Assembly: GCA_023512255.1 (NCBI GenBank) | Contig: JAILZY010000104.1 | Span: 1 to 11,755, forward strand | DNA from: a bacterium | GTDB lineage: Bacteria; SZUA-182; DTGQ01 | DNA: 11,755 nt | Reading direction: 5' to 3' | Shown here: positions 86 to 9,514 of the stretch, piece by piece | How the letters are laid out: each line of letters starts with the position of its first letter | How positions within the stretch are numbered: the first letter of the stretch is position 1 | Made by a program: the position numbers and the translations under genes | Notes under the pieces: generated by a model | Seen by the model: only the letters and a program-made list of their open reading frames with translations | What the model was told of the DNA's origin: nothing | Databases searched by the model: none

Positions 86-1750
86 TCATACCCAGAAGGC
101 AGAAGATACCGGCTCTAAAACCCGATAAATTTCCCGCACAAACCGGTCTTTGACTAACCAGCCTGTTACGGCCTCATCCAAAATAGCCACATCCCTGCCC
201 AAACCAAGAGTCTTATCTATAAATTCTCTCTCCAGCCGGACGGGGAAACCCGCCGCCCATCTCCTTCCCCGAAAATTTTCCTTTATCTCAAGCCCCAGAC
301 TAGGGGCAAGACCAAGAGCATCCTGATCGTATAATTCCATAAATTTCCCCACTTGGAAGAAGAGAACCGTATTGTTCAGCCTGGTCCTGAAAAACAGGTA
401 TTGGTTGTGAAACGACCGAAATAAGCCCTTGTGTTTATAGCGATCTTTTAACTTTCCCTTATGGAAAATGAAATACTCTCCAAGCCATGAATTGGCCGCC
501 AAAAGTGAATTGATCAGCCTGAAGGTATTAGCATGTTTAAAATGCCCCAGATAAGAGGCCAGGGTTTGCCTTAGCTTCCTTATCATCTCATCAGGCTGCA
601 TAATTACTTTTCTGACCTTCAGGCCATGAATCCGAAGCTCTTGAATCATCTTATCTTGAAACCGAGCCAACTTGAATTTTAAATTATTGACCACTCTTTT
701 CCGAGCCAGTAGATACCCAGGCCTGACAATATAGCCTAAAAAGTCAGCTCCCTCCGAAACCCTTTTTATCTTTCCCCTTCCCTTAAGCTGAAGAGCAAGC
801 TGCTTTTCTAGAAATTCCCCGATTCTGCCCTCCCACTCAAGTAACTGGTCTTTGTCAGGCGAGATGAGAACAGCGTCATCCACGTACCTGATATAAAAGC
901 GGCACTTAAGGCTATGCTTTATCAACTGATCCAGCTTATTCAAATAGACATTGGCCAGGAATTGAGAGGTAAGGTTGCCTATTGGCAGTCCTTTGCCCTG
1001 AGGCGCCTTGAAAAGCGATTTATGAGCTGGAATCTTATCCAGCATGGCCGGATCGCCCTTAAAGAAGTAGTCATCAGGACAATGATGAAAGATAGTTCGA
1101 TGAAGCAGGTAAAGGAGTGCCTCCGATTCAATATCTTTTCTAGGCAAAAGCTCTTGTTCGAGAATCTGAAAGAGTATCTCTTTATCTACACTCATGAAAA
1201 AGGAGCGAATGTCAAACTGAAGAAAATAAGCGACCCGCTTCTGATTTCTGGTCGCTTTAAGCATAAATTTCTGGAGCCTGGCCACAGCCGCATGGATTCC
1301 TTTCCTTGTCCTTGAGGCATAGGAATCGTAGATAAATTTTCGCTCCCAAACCTTTTCCATCTCTCGTACAATCAGATGATGAACGATCCTATCCCGAAAA
1401 TCAGCGGCAAAAATCTCACGTAACTTGGGACTTGTGGTAACAAAGCAAACAGAGCGGGATGGCTTGTAGGTACCGTTTTGTAAATCCTGCGCCAGGCCGA
1501 ACAGGTTATCTAATAAACGGCCTTCAAACCTGAGCGCATTTATCGTACCTCTTTTCCTTCGTCGGCAATCAAGATAAGCTCTCCAGACCGATCTAAAGGA
1601 GAGCAGGGAACACTTTCCGCCACGCACGGCTCGCACATAATAGCTGTTCGACTTATTGTTGTTGTTGACGCTGCCGTTGCTGAAGTTCACGCACCAGGCG
1701 TTATCAGTATTGCTGGCATTGGTAGTAGACGACCAGTATTCGGACGACAT
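86..1750 (-). CDS. DGR reverse transcriptase with C-terminal MutS domain I-like module
   Basis: This is the reverse transcriptase of a diversity-generating retroelement. It should copy the TR RNA into cDNA with errors at adenines, working with Avd. In the 554-residue form starting at ATG 1750, residues 1-45 are the translated TR and the RT proper begins near residue 49 (LLSFRSVWRAYLDCRRRKR). Visible RT motifs are FDIRSFF (first catalytic Asp at about 180), the DGR-typical GLPIGNLTSQ (about 254-263) and the catalytic YVDD box (about 289-292). Residues about 447-554 align along their whole length with MutS domain I: QYL, VLFFQVGKFMELYDQDA (MutS: LLFYRMGDFYELFYDDA), AAGFP (MAGIP) and a final VREIYRVLEP (VVRIVTPG). 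The Phe-x-Glu mismatch motif is present as FME. GGGAAGG lies 5 nt before ATG 1750. An upstream GTG at 1756 is in frame but overlaps that site. No ATG, GTG or TTG occurs between the TR and the RT core. RT identity is near certain; the start is less so. Confidence 0.95.
   Translation of the reverse strand: MSSEYWSSTTNASNTDNAWCVNFSNGSVNNNNKSNSYYVRAVRGGKCSLLSFRSVWRAYLDCRRRKRGTINALRFEGRLLDNLFGLAQDLQNGTYKPSRSVCFVTTSPKLREIFAADFRDRIVHHLIVREMEKVWERKFIYDSYASRTRKGIHAAVARLQKFMLKATRNQKRVAYFLQFDIRSFFMSVDKEILFQILEQELLPRKDIESEALLYLLHRTIFHHCPDDYFFKGDPAMLDKIPAHKSLFKAPQGKGLPIGNLTSQFLANVYLNKLDQLIKHSLKCRFYIRYVDDAVLISPDKDQLLEWEGRIGEFLEKQLALQLKGRGKIKRVSEGADFLGYIVRPGYLLARKRVVNNLKFKLARFQDKMIQELRIHGLKVRKVIMQPDEMIRKLRQTLASYLGHFKHANTFRLINSLLAANSWLGEYFIFHKGKLKDRYKHKGLFRSFHNQYLFFRTRLNNTVLFFQVGKFMELYDQDALGLAPSLGLEIKENFRGRRWAAGFPVRLEREFIDKTLGLGRDVAILDEAVTGWLVKDRFVREIYRVLEPVSSAFWV
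1616..1750 (-). repeat. DGR template repeat (TR), 135 bp
   Basis: This is the invariant donor copy of the VR at 2390-2524, in the same orientation and reading frame. Codon-by-codon comparison over 45 codons gives 15 differences, 13 of them at TR adenines (38 adenines in total). Nine of its ten AAY (Asn) codons differ in VR, including a run of four at codons 29-32. The last ten codons (from TATTATGTGCG to GGCGGA) are identical in both copies and are the likely initiation-of-mutagenic-homing region. Homology stops abruptly at the ATG on the 5' side. On the 3' side it ends at GGCGGA, or one codon later (AAG against CAG, again an A change). The TR runs directly into the RT coding sequence with no separate spacer. 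Confidence 0.95.
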
Positions 1751-2380: not shown

Positions 2381-3064
2381 TCAATCCTGTCCGCCACGCA
2401 CGGCTCGCACATAATAGCTGTAAGACTTATAGTAGTAGTAGACGCTGCCGTAGCCGAAGTTCACGCACCAGGCGCTATCAGTAAGGCCGGCATAGGTAGT
2501 AGACGACCAGTATAAGGACGACATGGTATTTGGAAAATATTTTTGGTTGATAGCCGGGTTGCTGCAAGCACCACGATCCACAATCATAGACAATTCTTTA
2601 ATCGTCGGCAGTCGCCAGTCGGAGAAGCCGCCGAATTTTTCATTATTCAGCCTGGCAATAAAGATAGTGTGCGCATCAATCCAGGAATAGGTGTTATCCT
2701 TATCATGAATTAAACCATCGTCGGTTTTATTTTCCCAGATCAGGCCGGTAACATTGTCCTTGATCATGCTCCAGGAGGTAGCGGAATCTGGCAGAGGTTT
2801 GCCTTGAGCATCGAGTTTGGTGTAGGAGGGAGGATTTATGGTGTAGTCCGAATCCTCGCCGAAGGTGTCGCTGAAAATTATAGTTTGTCCGGTGTCGGGG
2901 ATGGGGCGAGTGACTGAGACCGCAAAAGCCACCGAGCCTCCACCATGCCCTAGGAACAGCCCAAGCCCCAAAAGGCCAGCCATCATCCACACGGCCACTG
3001 AAGCTGCCATAAAATTTACCATCCACTTTACCCTTGACTCTATTAACCTTTCTAACCTGGTCAT
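2381..3064 (-). CDS. DGR-diversified exported DUF1566 (C-type-lectin-fold) target protein
   Basis: This 227-residue protein is the DGR target. Residues 1-16 are basic, about 17-39 form a hydrophobic segment and AFA near 46-48 is a plausible signal peptidase site, so it should be exported or anchored in the inner membrane. The mature part starts with PIPDTGQT, common at the start of DUF1566 proteins, followed by DNVTGLIWENK (103-113), FGGFSDWRLPTIKEL (144-158), YWSSTT (185-190), WCVNF (199-203) and a terminal YYVRAVRGG. This is the DUF1566/Lcl-C pattern, a C-type-lectin-like fold used by many DGR variable proteins. VR encodes residues 181-225, two codons before the stop. The diversified positions form a tyrosine-rich face (YGSVYYYYKSYSYY). 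AGGAGG lies 7 nt before ATG 3064, and a promoter lies at 3160-3189. The ligand cannot be inferred. Confidence 0.92.
   Translation of the reverse strand: MTRLERLIESRVKWMVNFMAASVAVWMMAGLLGLGLFLGHGGGSVAFAVSVTRPIPDTGQTIIFSDTFGEDSDYTINPPSYTKLDAQGKPLPDSATSWSMIKDNVTGLIWENKTDDGLIHDKDNTYSWIDAHTIFIARLNNEKFGGFSDWRLPTIKELSMIVDRGACSNPAINQKYFPNTMSSLYWSSTTYAGLTDSAWCVNFGYGSVYYYYKSYSYYVRAVRGGQD
2390..2524 (-). repeat. DGR variable repeat (VR), 135 bp
   Basis: This is the recipient copy of the TR at 1616-1750, forming the 3' end of the target gene. Relative to TR it shows nine A-to-T, three A-to-G and one A-to-C changes plus two G-to-T changes. Substitutions lie in 13 codons; most turn Asn codons into Tyr codons. 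The 3' portion from AGCTATTATG to GGCGGA is unchanged and would serve as the homing initiation site. After the VR the sequence is AT-rich with a duplicated TTGAATATTTG. I do not see the GC-rich hairpin that follows VR in some phage DGRs. Confidence 0.95.
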
Positions 3065-3809: not shown

Positions 3810-5573
3810 ATGCCCTTAGATCCGAGATATCACAAAGATTGGGAAATTGCCGAAGAAGCCGAAAGCCGGATGAAAACCGTATCCGAACTTGGGGAGATGC
3901 TTGGGCTGGAAAAAACAGAGCTCATCCCCATGGGGCACTATATCGGCAAGATTGACTTTGCCGCTATATTGAGGCGGCTAAAAGACAAACCAAATGGTAA
4001 GTATATCGACGTTACGGCAATTACCCCAACCCCGCTAGGTGAGGGAAAAAGCACCACCACGATGGGTCTGGTCCAAGGGCTTGGCAAGAAAGGGCTCAAA
4101 GTCATTGGGACTATCCGCCAGCCGTCCGGTGGGCCAACCTTCAACATCAAGGGAAGCGCCGCTGGCGGAGGTCTTGCTCAGTGCATCCCCTTAACCCCAT
4201 TTTCCCTTGGCTTGACCGGCGACATCGACAAGGTAACCAATGCTCACAATCTGGCCATGGTGGCCCTGACCTCAAGGATGCAGCATGAGGCCAACTACTC
4301 GGATGAGGAGCTGGCCAAGCGGGGCTTGCGAAGGCTTGATATTGATCCCAAAAATGTCGAGATGCGCTGGGTGATTGATTTTTGCGCCCAATCGCTTCGG
4401 GACATTATCATTGGGCATGGGAGCAAGATGGATGGCGTGCTGATGAGATCGGGATTTGCCATTTCGGTCAGCTCTGAGATCATGGCTATTTTGGCCGTCT
4501 CGACCAGCCTTAAAGATATGCGGGAGCGAATGAGCAGAATTGTCGTGGCTTATAATAAGCGCGGGGAGCCGGTGACTACCAAAGACCTTGAGGTCGATGG
4601 AGCCATGACCGCCTGGATGGTCCAGGCCCTCAATCCTAACCTGCTGCAAACCCTAGAAGGGCAGCCGGTGTTAGTCCATGCCGGGCCTTTTGCTAACATC
4701 GCCATTGGCCAGTCCTCGATCGTGGCCGATCAGGTAGGGTTGAAGCTGGCCGACTACGTAGTAACGGAAAGCGGCTTTGGAGCAGATATCGGCTTTGAGA
4801 AATTCTGGAACCTAAAGTGCCGCTTCAGCGGCCTAAAGCCACACTGCGCGGTTATTGTGACCACAGTCAGGGCGCTCAAGATGCACGGCGGAGGCCCCAA
4901 GGTGGTGCCAGGGAAACCCCTCGATGATGCCTATACCCACGAGAATGTGGAGCTGGTCGAGAGGGGCTGCCAGAACCTGATTGCCCATATCGAGACGGTC
5001 AAAAAGGCCGGAATAAACCCTGTGGTCTGCATCAATGCCTTCCATACCGACACCAAGGATGAAATCGCCACTATCCGCCGCCTGGCCGAGCAGACCGGAG
5101 CCAGGGTAGCCCTTTCCGAACACTGGCTGCGGGGCGGCGAAGGGGCCCTTGAGCTGGCCGAGGCAGTGATCGAGGCCTGCAATGATCAGAACGACTTTCG
5201 CTTCCTGTATGATGATGCTACCCCACTTCGGGAAAGAATCAAGCTTTTGGCCACCGAGGTCTATGGAGCCGACGATGTCTCCTACACTCCCGATGCGCTG
5301 GCCAAAGCCAAGAGGATCGAAGAAGATCCTGAGCTTTCCAAACTGGGCACCTGCATGGTCAAAACGCACCTTAGCCTGTCCCACGATCCGAATATCAAGG
5401 GAAGACCACGAGGGTGGACCCTCCCCATTCGGGATATCATGCTCTATCGGGGAGCAGGATTTGTCGTGCCAGTGGCCGGGGATATTAAACTCATGCCGGG
5501 CACGGCCTCTGACCCAGCTTTTCGGCGAATCGATGTGGATACCGAAACCGGCAAGGTGCGGGGCCTGTTTTAA
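3810..5573 (+). CDS. fhs: Formate-tetrahydrofolate ligase
   Basis: This cytoplasmic enzyme joins formate to tetrahydrofolate with ATP to give 10-formyltetrahydrofolate, feeding purine synthesis, the serine/glycine pathway or, in anaerobes, the methyl branch of the Wood-Ljungdahl pathway. The ATP-binding loop [12 protein letters not shown] lies at about residues 72-83, followed by the family signature stretch [19 protein letters not shown] (103-121). The conserved [14 protein letters not shown] segment and a C-terminal [16 protein letters not shown] are also present. At 587 residues it is about 30 longer than the typical 556-560 residue enzyme, resembling a long subtype. GGGAGG lies 6 nt before ATG 3810, so the start is secure. 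It stands alone, with neither folD nor a methylene-THF reductase next to it, so the pathway direction cannot be told from context. Confidence 0.97.
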
Positions 5574-5819: not shown

Positions 5820-6713
5820 TTATTTATAAGTGTAATCGAAGAAGTAGTCCGACCTGAGCCAGGTTTCAAGCTGGGTTGCGTCTTTGAGTGATTCGATATT
5901 CTTGGAAAGAGATAAAAAAAAGGCTGCTTCCTCATCCTTGTGATGTTTCAAACATCCACAGGCATAAATTTGGCATTTGCGTTTCAGCTCGGCTTTAGTG
6001 GCCTCCTGCTGCAGAGGGCTCAGGCATCCTTCGGCCATAATCTTGAGCATGGCCCTGATGCGCAGCTTGTCCAGCCCAACAAACTTCTGGGAGAGCTGAT
6101 CCTGGTGCCCACCTCTTTTGATAATAAGACGCTCTGGCAGATAGCCGATCGGAAACTGGCAACCTATCCGAAGCCACAGATCGTAATCCTCGCAGGCGGG
6201 AAAAGACTCATCAAAACAGCCGACTTGCTCCAGGATGTGGCGAGCTAACATCACTGACGATGGGCTAATAATGCAAAGCGGCAGGAGCCGCTCAAAGATA
6301 TGGCCGGAAAACTTCTGATGCTTCAATTTTTGATTCAACCAGGCACCATTTCGCAGCCAGATCTCGTTCGTATAACAGATTTGATATTCAGGATGCGCCT
6401 CAAGAAAGGCAATCTGAGCGGAGAGTTTGTTTTTCTTCCACAGGTCATCAGAATCCAGAAAGCAGATGAGCTTTCCTGAAGAATTAGCGATCCCCGTATT
6501 TCTAGCCGCACTCACCCCGCGATTATCCCCATGTTGAATGAGGAGCAGCCGATCACGGTAGGGCTGGATCAGCTTCAGGGTGTCATCGGTCGATCCGTCA
6601 TCGACGAGCAAAAGCTCAAAATCCCGATAGCTTTGAGACAGAACGCTCTCGATGGCCTCGGGAAGAAAAAAAGCCCGATTATAAGCAGTAATGATCACGC
6701 TGACCGCAGGCAT
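5820..6713 (-). CDS. Family 2 glycosyltransferase (GT-A fold)
   Basis: This is an inverting nucleotide-sugar glycosyltransferase of about 297 residues, probably cytoplasmic or membrane-peripheral and acting on surface polysaccharide or lipopolysaccharide. The N-terminus has PAVSVIITAYNRAFFLPEAIESVLSQ in two overlapping conserved blocks. Next come LLVDDGSTDDT (about 35-45), NRGVSAARNTGI, and FLDSDDLW (about 85-92) with the DxD-type metal site. CEDYDLWLRIG (about 174-184) carries the probable catalytic acidic residue. A helical C-terminal tail follows. ATG 6713 is preferred because it directly precedes the conserved core. An in-frame TTG at 6728 is possible, and neither has a convincing ribosome site. 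Donor and acceptor cannot be named, and no sugar-pathway gene is adjacent. Confidence 0.9.
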   Translation of the reverse strand: MPAVSVIITAYNRAFFLPEAIESVLSQSYRDFELLLVDDGSTDDTLKLIQPYRDRLLLIQHGDNRGVSAARNTGIANSSGKLICFLDSDDLWKKNKLSAQIAFLEAHPEYQICYTNEIWLRNGAWLNQKLKHQKFSGHIFERLLPLCIISPSSVMLARHILEQVGCFDESFPACEDYDLWLRIGCQFPIGYLPERLIIKRGGHQDQLSQKFVGLDKLRIRAMLKIMAEGCLSPLQQEATKAELKRKCQIYACGCLKHHKDEEAAFFLSLSKNIESLKDATQLETWLRSDYFFDYTYK

Positions 6714-6863
6714 GTACTTTGTCAACAAATTCCCAGTTTTTCAACAAATTCCCATAAGAGTTGCTTACTAGTGGACACATTTTATCTTCCGGTTTTGCAT
6801 GTGCCTTATATTTTGTATGTGCCTTCTAAGTGCAGTTATTTCATGTCATGTGCAGGCATTTCA

Positions 6864-6954
6864 TGTCATTTCCGCATAGGCGGGAATCCAGAGGGTTGCT
6901 GCAACCATACATAGATTACCACTTTCGCGGGAATGATGATAGCGGGAATGATGA
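6864..6954. repeat. dRS3-like intergenic repeat remnant
   Basis: At 6868-6887 the sequence ATTTCCGCATAGGCGGGAAT matches the pattern ATTCCC-N8-GGGAAT known from Neisseria dRS3 repeats and similar elements elsewhere, with one mismatch. A second arm, TTTCGCGGGAATGATGATAG (6924-6943), lies 50 bp away in the opposite sense and is followed by a duplicated GCGGGAATGATGATA. The rest of 6714-7016 holds other small duplications (CAACAAATTCCCA twice at 6724-6753; TTTCATGTCAT twice at 6839-6869) and no gene. Confidence 0.45.
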
Positions 6955-7016
6955 TAAAAGTGTCGGTAGTGAAAAGAGTTGCCCCCCTGTTTTAGCTTGG
7001 TTCTCAAAATAATGAA

Positions 7017-7045
7017 TTGACTTTTTGAGGCAGCTTTATTATGAT
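7017..7045 (+). promoter_or_regulatory. Strong promoter of tRNA-Arg
   Basis: TTGACT (7017-7022), a 17-bp spacer and TATGAT (7040-7045) give a near-consensus sigma70 promoter. Transcription would start near 7052, about 56 nt before the tRNA. An imperfect duplication (GATAAAGCTACTA twice, 7060-7100) fills the leader. Confidence 0.6.
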
Positions 7046-7107
7046 AAATCCACTACTTGGATAAAGCTACTACTTATCATGACTTTGATAAAGCTACTAT
7101 TTGTCAT

Positions 7108-7180
7108 GCGCCTGTAGCTCAGGGGATAGAGCGCAGCGCTCCGGACGCTGAAGCCGAAGGTTCGAGTCCTTCCAGGCGCA
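7108..7180 (+). tRNA. tRNA-Arg (anticodon CCG)
   Basis: This is a 73-nt cloverleaf. The acceptor stem is GCGCCTG/CAGGCGC with discriminator A; the D arm contains GCTCAGGGGATAGAGC. The anticodon stem CAGCG/CGCTG encloses the loop CTCCGGA, with anticodon CCG reading CGG Arg codons. The T arm contains GGTTCGAGTCC. The 3' CCA is not encoded. Confidence 0.95.
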
Positions 7181-7201
7181 TAAAATCACCCTTCACTTCC
7201 C

Positions 7202-7280
7202 CCCTTACGCTTTAGGGTAAAAAGCACTAGCTGGCAGGTACACCAGGCTGGTAGGCTCACTTCTCCCTTACGCTTTAGGG
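7202..7280 (+). repeat. Pair of CCCTTACGCTTTAGGG repeats after tRNA-Arg
   Basis: The 16-mer CCCTTACGCTTTAGGG occurs at 7202-7217 and again, perfectly, at 7265-7280, each followed by an A-run (TAAAAA, GAAAAA). Each copy can form a weak CCCT/AGGG hairpin. No plus-strand T-run follows, so a terminator role for the tRNA is doubtful. The rest of 7281-7660 is low-complexity AT-rich sequence with small duplications (CTCAATAAAAACAA twice near 7331-7360; TTTTGGTATCTTT twice near 7632-7660). I see no gene in it. Confidence 0.45.
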
Positions 7281-7662
7281 GAAAAACCTAATCTATCTTC
7301 TCTAAGACTATCTTCTCTCAATAACTCAATTCTCAATAAAAACAATCTCAATAAAAACAAAGACAAGATGATAGATTTCCCGCCTTCCCCTTATTTCCCA
7401 CTCCATTTTTGCTTCCCTATAAATCTTTGGCAGCAGGATTTGTTACTGGAGTATAGCATAAAAAAAGACAAAGGGTTATCAAACCGACAAATCAAGTTAA
7501 ATATCACACTCTTATATCCCACTTTTGCCTTTTTGCTCTCATCTTGCCTTTTCGCTTTCATTCTCCTCCTTTTGAGTAATAATGCTTTTTAGTAATAATG
7601 ACTTTGGAATGTTAGGAACATATTCTTTTGTTTTGGTATCTTTTTTCTTTTGGTATCTTTGC

Positions 7663-7690
7663 TTGTATTTTCAGAGAAACGGATTATAAT
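7663..7690 (+). promoter_or_regulatory. Promoter of the small exported protein gene
   Basis: TTGTAT (7663-7668), a 16-bp spacer and a perfect TATAAT (7685-7690) are seen. Transcription would start near 7697, immediately at the AAAGGAG ribosome site, giving a leader of about 16 nt. This placement supports translation from 7713 rather than from an in-frame ATG at 7650, which would lie upstream of the transcript. Confidence 0.45.
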
Positions 7691-7712
7691 TAAATTAAAG
7701 GAGATGATTTAT

Positions 7713-8117
7713 ATGTCAAACAAATTCATCTTTACCTTATCTTTGACAATTTTTGCAATCTTAGCGGCCGCGTCTTTCTTCGTCGGCACTGCCTTGGCTC
7801 AGTTTTTCGGCACTCATACCTACGCTATCCGGGTGGGGAGTATAGAGCAGGGATACCTGACCGTTACTTTTAATCCAGATGGCACTATTTTGGGCAAGGC
7901 TCAGTTGTTAGGCCAAGGGCGGCAGCCGATTCCCCTGTCTGGCATTTATGGTGAGACAATATTTGTCATCAAATACACGCTGGAGGATGGCACTGAGGTT
8001 TTGGATCACTGCCGATTTATCTCCGAAGATGAATTTATTGGCTTTGAGCGCTATGTTGTTGATGGAGATATTAGGGGGATAACTAAGATCAGCGGACTTA
8101 AGAAAGATAATATCTAG
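7713..8117 (+). CDS. Small exported protein of unknown function
   Basis: I do not recognise this 134-residue protein. Residues 1-30 form a textbook signal peptide: MSNK, a hydrophobic core TLSLTIFAILAAASFFVG, then TALAQ with likely cleavage after ALA. The mature part (about 104 residues) has alternating hydrophobic/polar stretches (YAIRVGSIEQGYLTVTFNPDGTILGKAQLL) that suggest a small beta-rich domain, with one cysteine (C100). The mix of aromatic and acidic residues and absence of later hydrophobic spans suggest a periplasmic or secreted protein. AAAGGAG (7697-7703) sits 9 nt before ATG 7713, fixing the start. It appears to be a single-gene unit with its own promoter and a terminator downstream at 8396-8439. 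Confidence 0.75.
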   Translation: MSNKFIFTLSLTIFAILAAASFFVGTALAQFFGTHTYAIRVGSIEQGYLTVTFNPDGTILGKAQLLGQGRQPIPLSGIYGETIFVIKYTLEDGTEVLDHCRFISEDEFIGFERYVVDGDIRGITKISGLKKDNI

Positions 8118-8556: not shown

Positions 8557-8585
8557 TTGACAAACGAATTTGAATCTGCTATAAA
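8557..8585 (+). promoter_or_regulatory. Promoter of the tRNA-Gly/tRNA-Cys unit
   Basis: A perfect -35 TTGACA (8557-8562), a 17-bp spacer and -10 TATAAA (8580-8585) preceded by TGC make a strong extended promoter. Transcription would start near 8592, about 10 nt before the first tRNA. The two tRNAs are probably co-transcribed. Confidence 0.7.
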
Positions 8586-8601
8586 TTATCATATCTGAAA
8601 A

Positions 8602-8673
8602 GCGGGAATAGCTCAGCGGTAGAGCATCGCCTTGCCAAGGCGGTGGTCGCGGGTTCAAATCCCGTTTCCCGCT
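8602..8673 (+). tRNA. tRNA-Gly (anticodon GCC)
   Basis: This is a 72-nt cloverleaf. The acceptor stem is GCGGGAA/TTCCCGC with discriminator T; the D arm is GCTCAGCGGTAGAGC. The anticodon stem TCGCC/GGCGG (one T-G pair) encloses TTGCCAA with anticodon GCC. The T arm contains GGTTCAAATCC. CCA is not encoded; a pyrimidine-rich spacer of 22 bp separates it from tRNA-Cys. Confidence 0.96.
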
Positions 8674-8695
8674 CTTTTCTTTTTTTCTCAAACAA

Positions 8696-8763
<68 letters not shown>

Positions 8764-8767
<4 letters not shown>

Positions 8768-8997
8768 TCACTGGTTGGGAGGCTGCTCTAACCGGTGTTG
8801 GTGGGTGCCTTCAATAGGCGGCCCGATGCTCCTGTATTATCGTATCGCCTTCATTGGCCCGGCGGCTATCAACTCTATATTCGGATCTGCCACTTTTATA
8901 TTCTTCCTTAATATTATTCTTCTTCATATTATTTTTCGTATTTTTCGGGTCTGCCGCTTTATAGTACTACTTTCTAGCCGCTGCCTTCACTGCTCGG
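8764..8997 (+). repeat. GCCTTCA direct repeats spreading from the tRNA-Cys 3' end
   Basis: The last bases of tRNA-Cys and what follows, GCCTTCACTGG (8764-8774), recur in degenerate form as GCCTTCAATAGG (8808-8819), GCCTTCATTGG (8847-8857) and GCCTTCACTGCTCGG (8983-8997). Between them a second pair, TCGGATCTGCCACTTTTATA and TCGGGTCTGCCGCTTTATA (8881 and 8945), is 64 bp apart. No gene lies in 8768-8986. These may be degraded duplications or worn attachment-site copies. Confidence 0.4.
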
Positions 8998-9514
8998 CAA
9001 TGTAGGCGAATATTTTTTCGATCCGGCTGATAACCTCATCAATTGAAATAGCGGTAAAGCATTCTCGGCTCCGACATGAGCGACGATATTCAGGGGAACA
9101 AGGGGAGCAGGCGAGCCCTTTCCAGATAATTTCATTCCGCGCTCCAGCGCGCCCCGACCAGGCAAAGGGTTTGGTCGGTCCGAAAAGTATGATGCATGGC
9201 ACGCCTAGCGATGCAGCCAGCCTGCTTGTGCCTCCGTCCGGGCCGATAAACAGGTTACAAGAGCTTATGATCTCCCCTAATTTATCTAATTCCAATAGGC
9301 TGATCGTATTAGGTCTTTCTCCCTTCATCCGATCCGTAATCTCTTTTACATAATCCTGATCTGTTAAACCGGCTATGATCCAAATTTCAAAACCATAATC
9401 CTGCTGACATTTGCGAAGCAAATCCGCTGTCCGGTATGCAGGCCAAAATTTTTCCCCATATCCAATCCTTGGATTGAGAACAAGTTTTGGTTTACCAGTG
9501 CTGTGATTTTCCAT
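8987..9514 (-). CDS. C-terminal half of a GT9 (heptosyltransferase-like) glycosyltransferase
   Basis: This 175-residue product contains only the nucleotide-sugar-binding C-terminal domain of a glycosyltransferase family 9 enzyme; full enzymes are about 340-370 residues with two Rossmann-like domains. The family signature is clear at 91-116: GPDGGTSRLAASLGVPC followed by IILFGPTKP. A cysteine-bearing segment (C136, C139, C147, C152) matches the CxxC...C pattern of many GT9 C-termini. An N-terminal strand LVLNPRIGYGEKFWP corresponds to the start of the domain. A TAA stop lies in frame eight codons before ATG 9514, and no N-terminal domain is encoded upstream. AGGAAA lies 9 nt before the ATG, so the fragment could be translated. 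It is either a remnant or a stand-alone domain; without the acceptor-binding half, normal activity is unlikely. Confidence 0.75.
   Translation of the reverse strand: MENHSTGKPKLVLNPRIGYGEKFWPAYRTADLLRKCQQDYGFEIWIIAGLTDQDYVKEITDRMKGERPNTISLLELDKLGEIISSCNLFIGPDGGTSRLAASLGVPCIILFGPTKPFAWSGRAGARNEIIWKGLACSPCSPEYRRSCRSRECFTAISIDEVISRIEKIFAYIAEQ

Follow-up and report, generated by a model that had tools for sequence, protein, structure and literature searches.

The window is the whole 11,755-nucleotide stretch of bacterial DNA analysed here (contig JAILZY010000104.1). It carries a complete DGR, consisting of a reverse transcriptase (RT), Avd, a TR/VR pair and an Lcl_C target, all on the reverse strand. 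The RT is encoded by an open frame with a C-terminal extension (positions 86–1,756). Approximately 46 residues at the N-terminus of this frame are encoded by TR, and the conserved RT starts near position 1,610. The catalytic domain (725–1,426; residues 111–344) scores 68 bits against Pfam RVT_1 and contains the sequences IGNLTSQ and YVDD. The former fits the pattern (I/V/L)GxxxSQ, which tests for the SQ motif described for DGR RTs (PMC3521204). The closest solved structure to the window RT is that of the BPP-1 DGR RT (8ub7; TM 0.88 by target). The two systems have in common the RT core, the SQ motif, an Avd partner and adenine-directed TR/VR variation. However, the BPP-1 chain in that structure has 328 aa and stops after the thumb, whereas the window RT continues into MutS_I.

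TR (1,613–1,750) and VR (2,387–2,524) are each 138 nt long. TR abuts the RT, with which it is in frame. VR forms the 3' end of the target gene and is 88% identical to TR, without gaps. Fourteen of the 16 mismatches fall at TR adenines (hypergeometric p 3e-7). The target gene (2,381–3,064) encodes an Lcl_C protein (Pfam E 3.9e-37). The avd gene (1,943–2,320) matches the PHROG family 'Avd protein of DGR' (E 1.2e-21), and its Pfam bAvd score of 37.7 bits is slightly below the cut-off of 40. A DGR with a separate avd, as proposed in an initial annotation of this DNA, is therefore what the window contains. The genome yielded no further clean VR; the candidates were only paralogous Lcl_C domains, without adenine bias.

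Between TR and the in-frame RT, no start codon was seen in the sequence read (1,613–1,756). Hence, the RT start may lie inside TR. Close spacing of TR and RT was dismissed as a trait of fused DGRs, being equally frequent in viral DGRs without the tail. Judged by eye, the neighbours look like a formate-tetrahydrofolate ligase (3,810–5,573, forward strand), a family 2 glycosyltransferase (5,820–6,728, reverse strand) and a family 9 glycosyltransferase fragment (8,987–9,514, reverse strand). The setting thus resembles an ordinary chromosome and not a phage.

A MutS domain I at the RT C-terminus

The initial annotation assigned positions 86–430 to MutS domain I. Pfam placed MutS_I (PF01624) at 113–412 on the reverse strand (ORF residues 449–548). 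Hence, the domain and its place at the RT C-terminus stand, with slightly trimmed boundaries. The score was 43.4 bits in the whole protein and 46.8 bits for the tail alone, against a cut-off of 20.6. The match spans profile positions 3–105 of 113, and the profile aligned the same motifs that had been lined up in the initial annotation. NCBIfam MutS models also match the tail region. A separate genome scan recovered the same site (E 1.7e-11), together with one ordinary 926-aa MutS elsewhere in the genome. A phmmer search of PDB sequences identified MutS, with Taq MutS at the top (2.4e-5). A profile built from 44 tails found PDB MutS at 8e-16.

The predicted structure gave the same identity. For RT plus tail, modelled by AlphaFold2 with an alignment of 39 relatives, pLDDT was 92.8 and pTM 0.84. 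For the tail only, pLDDT was 90.8. Foldseek matched the tail-only model to MutS, MSH3 and MSH6. VIA-align gave Z scores of 16.2–11.4 for MutS, MSH3 and MSH6 chains and 5.3 for the next unrelated entry (XPB and others). The N-terminal damage-recognition domain of XPB (2fz4) is weakly like the MutS domain I fold (Z ~5). It sits in a helicase context and the match is far weaker, but it illustrates how a similar fold may function in a protein other than MutS. We conclude that window positions 113–412 encode a genuine MutS domain I at the C-terminus of a DGR RT. Chance is excluded because over 40 other genomes carry the same fusion.

The tail shares with domain I of MutS, MSH6 and MSH3 the fold over ~108 residues, the motif order, the aromatic wedge and the Glu. 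Unlike these proteins, it has no domains II–V, has lost the Asp before the Phe, often has Tyr for Phe and is joined to an RT. No MutS connector, clamp or ATPase domain with dimerisation was found in the ORF, which has domain I only. Nor is there a small stand-alone PF01624 gene of the MSL type in the window, where the domain is fused.

Distribution, origin and decay of the fusion

We scanned GTDB species genomes with an alignment of RT and tail. This yields a similarity-biased sample of at least 80 loci and not an estimate of prevalence; among the matches listed, an iterated HMM placed MutS_I inside the RT frame in 44 of 80 DGR RTs. Other DGR RTs with the tail, which the initial annotation had suggested looking for, thus exist. 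Two more divergent tails (L094 and L123), with W-x-E or Y-x-E, were recognised by eye, and at one further locus (L098) the frame into the tail is broken. Pfam alone confirmed MutS_I in 35 of the 39 aligned relatives scanned (E 0.01). The hosts belong to Desulfobacterota, Pseudomonadota, Nitrospirota, Nitrospinota, Elusimicrobiota and KSB1/Calditrichota, and further to Acidobacteriota, Planctomycetota, Chloroflexota, Verrucomicrobiota and Myxococcota. At the fused loci, avd lies beside the RT in 41/49 and an adenine-biased TR/VR pair is present in 38/49. Hence, fused loci are DGRs as a class. Most DGRs work without a MutS_I domain.

Among viral DGR RTs, 0 of 80 examined had the tail. Neither the full protein nor the tail alignment, when used to scan viral contigs, recovered a relative of the tail. 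A tblastn search of phage and plasmid collections with the tail gave weak matches only (best E 2e-4), and those with an annotation were MutS.

In a domain tree built by a quick method from few columns, the fused MutS_I domains formed one clade (SH-aLRT 99), separate from both MutS and the stand-alone MutS-like genes. On the RT tree, presence and absence of the tail require 4 (starred branches) to 7 changes. We rejected independent gains, since the domain tree gives one clade and the changes on the RT tree are best read as one gain and several losses. The simplest reading, on a presumed root and direction, is one ancient fusion with later losses. Domain I would have been acquired a single time from a protein of the MutS type, and would then have spread along with a clade of DGRs that are mostly cell-encoded.

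Some copies are damaged. In G001, a genome of the same genus, the sequence ahead of the tail lacks one T (CATTTAAAC vs CATTTTAAAC) and the tail is in the -1 frame. In that frame, the first start codon comes no earlier than codon 114, downstream of the wedge. We noted that the tail of this same-genus relative (L033:2716–3234) sits behind a slippery heptamer, T TTA AAC. A programmed -1 frameshift was considered and set aside; the heptamer is in the right frame, but the change is equivalent to losing one base from a run of T and was seen once. The frame is probably broken or mis-assembled, and a programmed shift is less likely. Comparing the window with G001, dN/dS was 0.12 for the RT, 0.37 for the tail and ~0.5 for the domain alone, values from one close pair in which the sister's tail is out of frame. 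Adjoining the G001 DGR (L033:3238–10142) are long proteins with repeated Lcl_C units (YWSS...YVRAVR), which are possible further targets. Within the same family, another DGR (G003; L034:2388–4387) seems degenerate, with a deleted RT thumb, SR in place of SQ, avd split in two frames and no wedge. At L098:7930–8110, RT and tail are put out of frame by a tandem duplication of 17 nt.

A link between MutS_I and DGRs is already known, because the MSL accessory protein (PF01624) has been published. PMC10053308, citing Wu et al. 2018 for MSL, gives HRDC and MSL as known DGR accessory proteins, and MSL bears out the mention of MutS-like accessory proteins in the initial annotation. There, 'domains fused to RT' is given as a class of hit, without MutS_I being named. 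Like the window domain, MSL consists of PF01624 by itself and is genetically linked to a DGR that has avd and RT. It differs in being an accessory protein, whereas the window domain is the C-terminus of the RT. No description of an RT–MutS_I fusion was found in the literature searched, in which MSL is covered through its citation in PMC10053308. The RT-fused form, its single-clade origin, the conserved wedge and the loss of Asp were likewise not found in that literature.

Separate MutS_I genes were seen only at L088/L071, L123 and L134. They form their own clade and have F-x-Q or lack the motif. L088 (same record as L071) and L123 have both a fused tail (F-F-E and Y-W-E, respectively) and, by avd, a separate MutS_I gene of 107–122 aa with F-x-Q. 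L134 has the separate gene only. In the Lambdaproteobacteria DGR L071, the stand-alone gene (F-L-Q) is at 8571–8936 and the RT-fused domain (F-F-E) at 6342–7895, both on the reverse strand; avd and two Lcl_C targets are also present. A small MutS_I gene in G182 (L072) was discarded, as it is a frameshifted ordinary MutS adjoining mutL. In the MSH6/MSH2 pair, which is asymmetric, one partner bears the wedge. By analogy, our guess is that fused and stand-alone F-x-Q copies might pair in this way.

Conservation of the mismatch wedge

The codons for Phe-Met-Glu lie at 335–343 on the reverse strand. By sequence and alignment, they are the counterpart of F36-x-E38 in E. coli MutS. Hence, the Phe-x-Glu motif is intact, as had been noted initially. 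We compared 39 MutS domains with 46 DGR tails (the window and 45 others). An aromatic-x-Glu motif is retained in 41/46 tails (F-x-E in 31, Y-x-E in 10), at a mean tail identity of 28%. The aromatic and Glu positions are among the most conserved columns of the tail alignment. The residue between them is Tyr in 97% of MutS and freely variable in tails. The five exceptions are the degenerate G003, one C-x-E and three Elusimicrobiota-type tails without the motif. Two of the latter three loci still have an adenine-biased TR/VR pair. Judged from these alignments, the wedge motif is under clear constraint in fused tails.

Other features of the domain have changed. Identity of the tails to MutS is low, at 22%. 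The Asp preceding the wedge Phe is invariant in the 39 MutS compared but lost in tails, where Arg or Lys replaces it in 26/46. Median net charge is +8.5 for tails and +3 for MutS domain I; the window domain is just +2.

Possible roles of the fused domain

In MutS, DNA clamping, ATP use and contact with MutL belong to regions outside domain I, and domain I itself works within a clamped dimer. Since the tail has domain I only, without connector, clamp or ATPase, it could recognise mismatches but not start repair. Constraint on the aromatic-x-Glu motif makes mismatch binding likely. Hence, the tail probably binds the element's own mismatches but would not recruit MutL. Guiding the RT to heteroduplexes, shielding them and biasing which strand is kept, as proposed in the initial annotation, are candidate roles. 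That the fusion occurs in dozens of bacteria with its mismatch-reading residues kept points to an element that deals with its own mismatches.

The best explanation overall, which we hold tentatively and at somewhat less than even probability, is that a captured MutS domain I binds the element's mismatches and shields them from host repair. The RT would misincorporate opposite template adenines. Mispairs would arise first in the hybrid of TR RNA and cDNA, and later in the heteroduplex of cDNA with VR. The tail would bind those mispairs and hold the RT–cDNA complex at the mismatched duplex, so covering them from host MutS until replication fixes them. Conservation of the wedge, the raised basic charge of the tails and the single clade of fused domains speak for this explanation. 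Deletion of mutS raises retron editing in E. coli 21-fold, and host MutS opposes cDNA-templated edits (PMC6868368). The published DGR experiment on mutS in E. coli relied on an insertion of 18 nt (PMC12875486). This leaves shielding undecided, because such an insertion is not a MutS substrate.

In favour of shielding, MutS1 scored over the cut-off in 40/44 fusion genomes and in 7/30 genomes of unfused cellular DGRs in our set, the latter hosts being largely Patescibacteria, archaea and Campylobacterota. We did not accept this as an association of MutS1 with the fusion; Fisher's test gives p 2e-9 as a count, but the signal is inseparable from kinship (3 independent contrasts on supported branches). 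In G411, the genome of L151, MutS was found only with many TGA codons read through, as expected of a Gracilibacteria genome with recoded TGA. Several points count against shielding. In MutS, domain I acts as part of a clamped dimer, all 80 viral DGR RTs examined lack the tail, motif-less Elusimicrobiota-type tails accompany adenine-biased TR/VR pairs (2/3 loci), and the tail has a higher dN/dS than the RT in one close pair.

Alternatively, the tail could grip the RNA/cDNA hybrid by its minor groove where a fresh mispair has formed, and so aid extension by the RT past that mispair. The yield of heavily mutated cDNA would rise and host repair would be irrelevant. We consider this rather unlikely, although the domain is fused in cis right behind the thumb, with which an RT contacts its primer-template duplex. 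AlphaFold2 places the domain confidently, basic charge is raised and the aromatic wedge is retained. However, MutS domain I is known for binding DNA duplex and not RNA/DNA hybrid. Furthermore, tail-less DGRs mutate adenines equally heavily. The idea that the tail increases adenine mutation was rejected, with 735/1625 TR positions changed with the tail and 539/1394 without, no clear difference. A general role in docking to nucleic acid or protein, such as TR RNA, Avd or target DNA, with the fold kept and mismatch recognition lost, is less probable still. It would explain the replaced Asp before the wedge, the more basic surface, the low identity to MutS (22%) and the Elusimicrobiota-type tails that have the domain without the motif. 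It fits poorly with an aromatic and a Glu fixed in 41/46 tails while the residue between them drifts, a pattern in which selection on the wedge itself is hard to avoid. The tail is also no substitute for Avd, because avd adjoins 41/49 fused RTs.

It is very improbable that the tail is a relic in decay with no function today. The lost frames of G001 and L098, the state of G003 (deleted thumb, split avd, no wedge) and the relaxed dN/dS of the tail relative to the RT point that way. However, the wedge is conserved in over 40 intact, in-frame fusions from many phyla, dN/dS is below 1 and G003 decays as a whole element. Family-wide conservation therefore disfavours this reading. We favour mismatch binding with shielding of heteroduplexes, then help in cDNA synthesis, then repurposing. 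A broader proposal is possible but doubtful. It holds that a widespread clade of cell-encoded DGRs would carry its own repair antagonist, a repair-dead MutS domain I sometimes paired with a stand-alone F-x-Q copy.

The fusion bears on how mutated DGR cDNA escapes host mismatch repair and is then fixed in its target gene. A putative built-in mismatch-binding domain with a known key pair of residues makes this testable, using point mutants in mutS+ and mutS-minus hosts. Because host MutS limits related cDNA-based editing, the domain may also be of use in tools engineered for in vivo hypermutation. If these DGRs do carry a repair antagonist, the host would be kept from erasing the mismatches that yield diversity.
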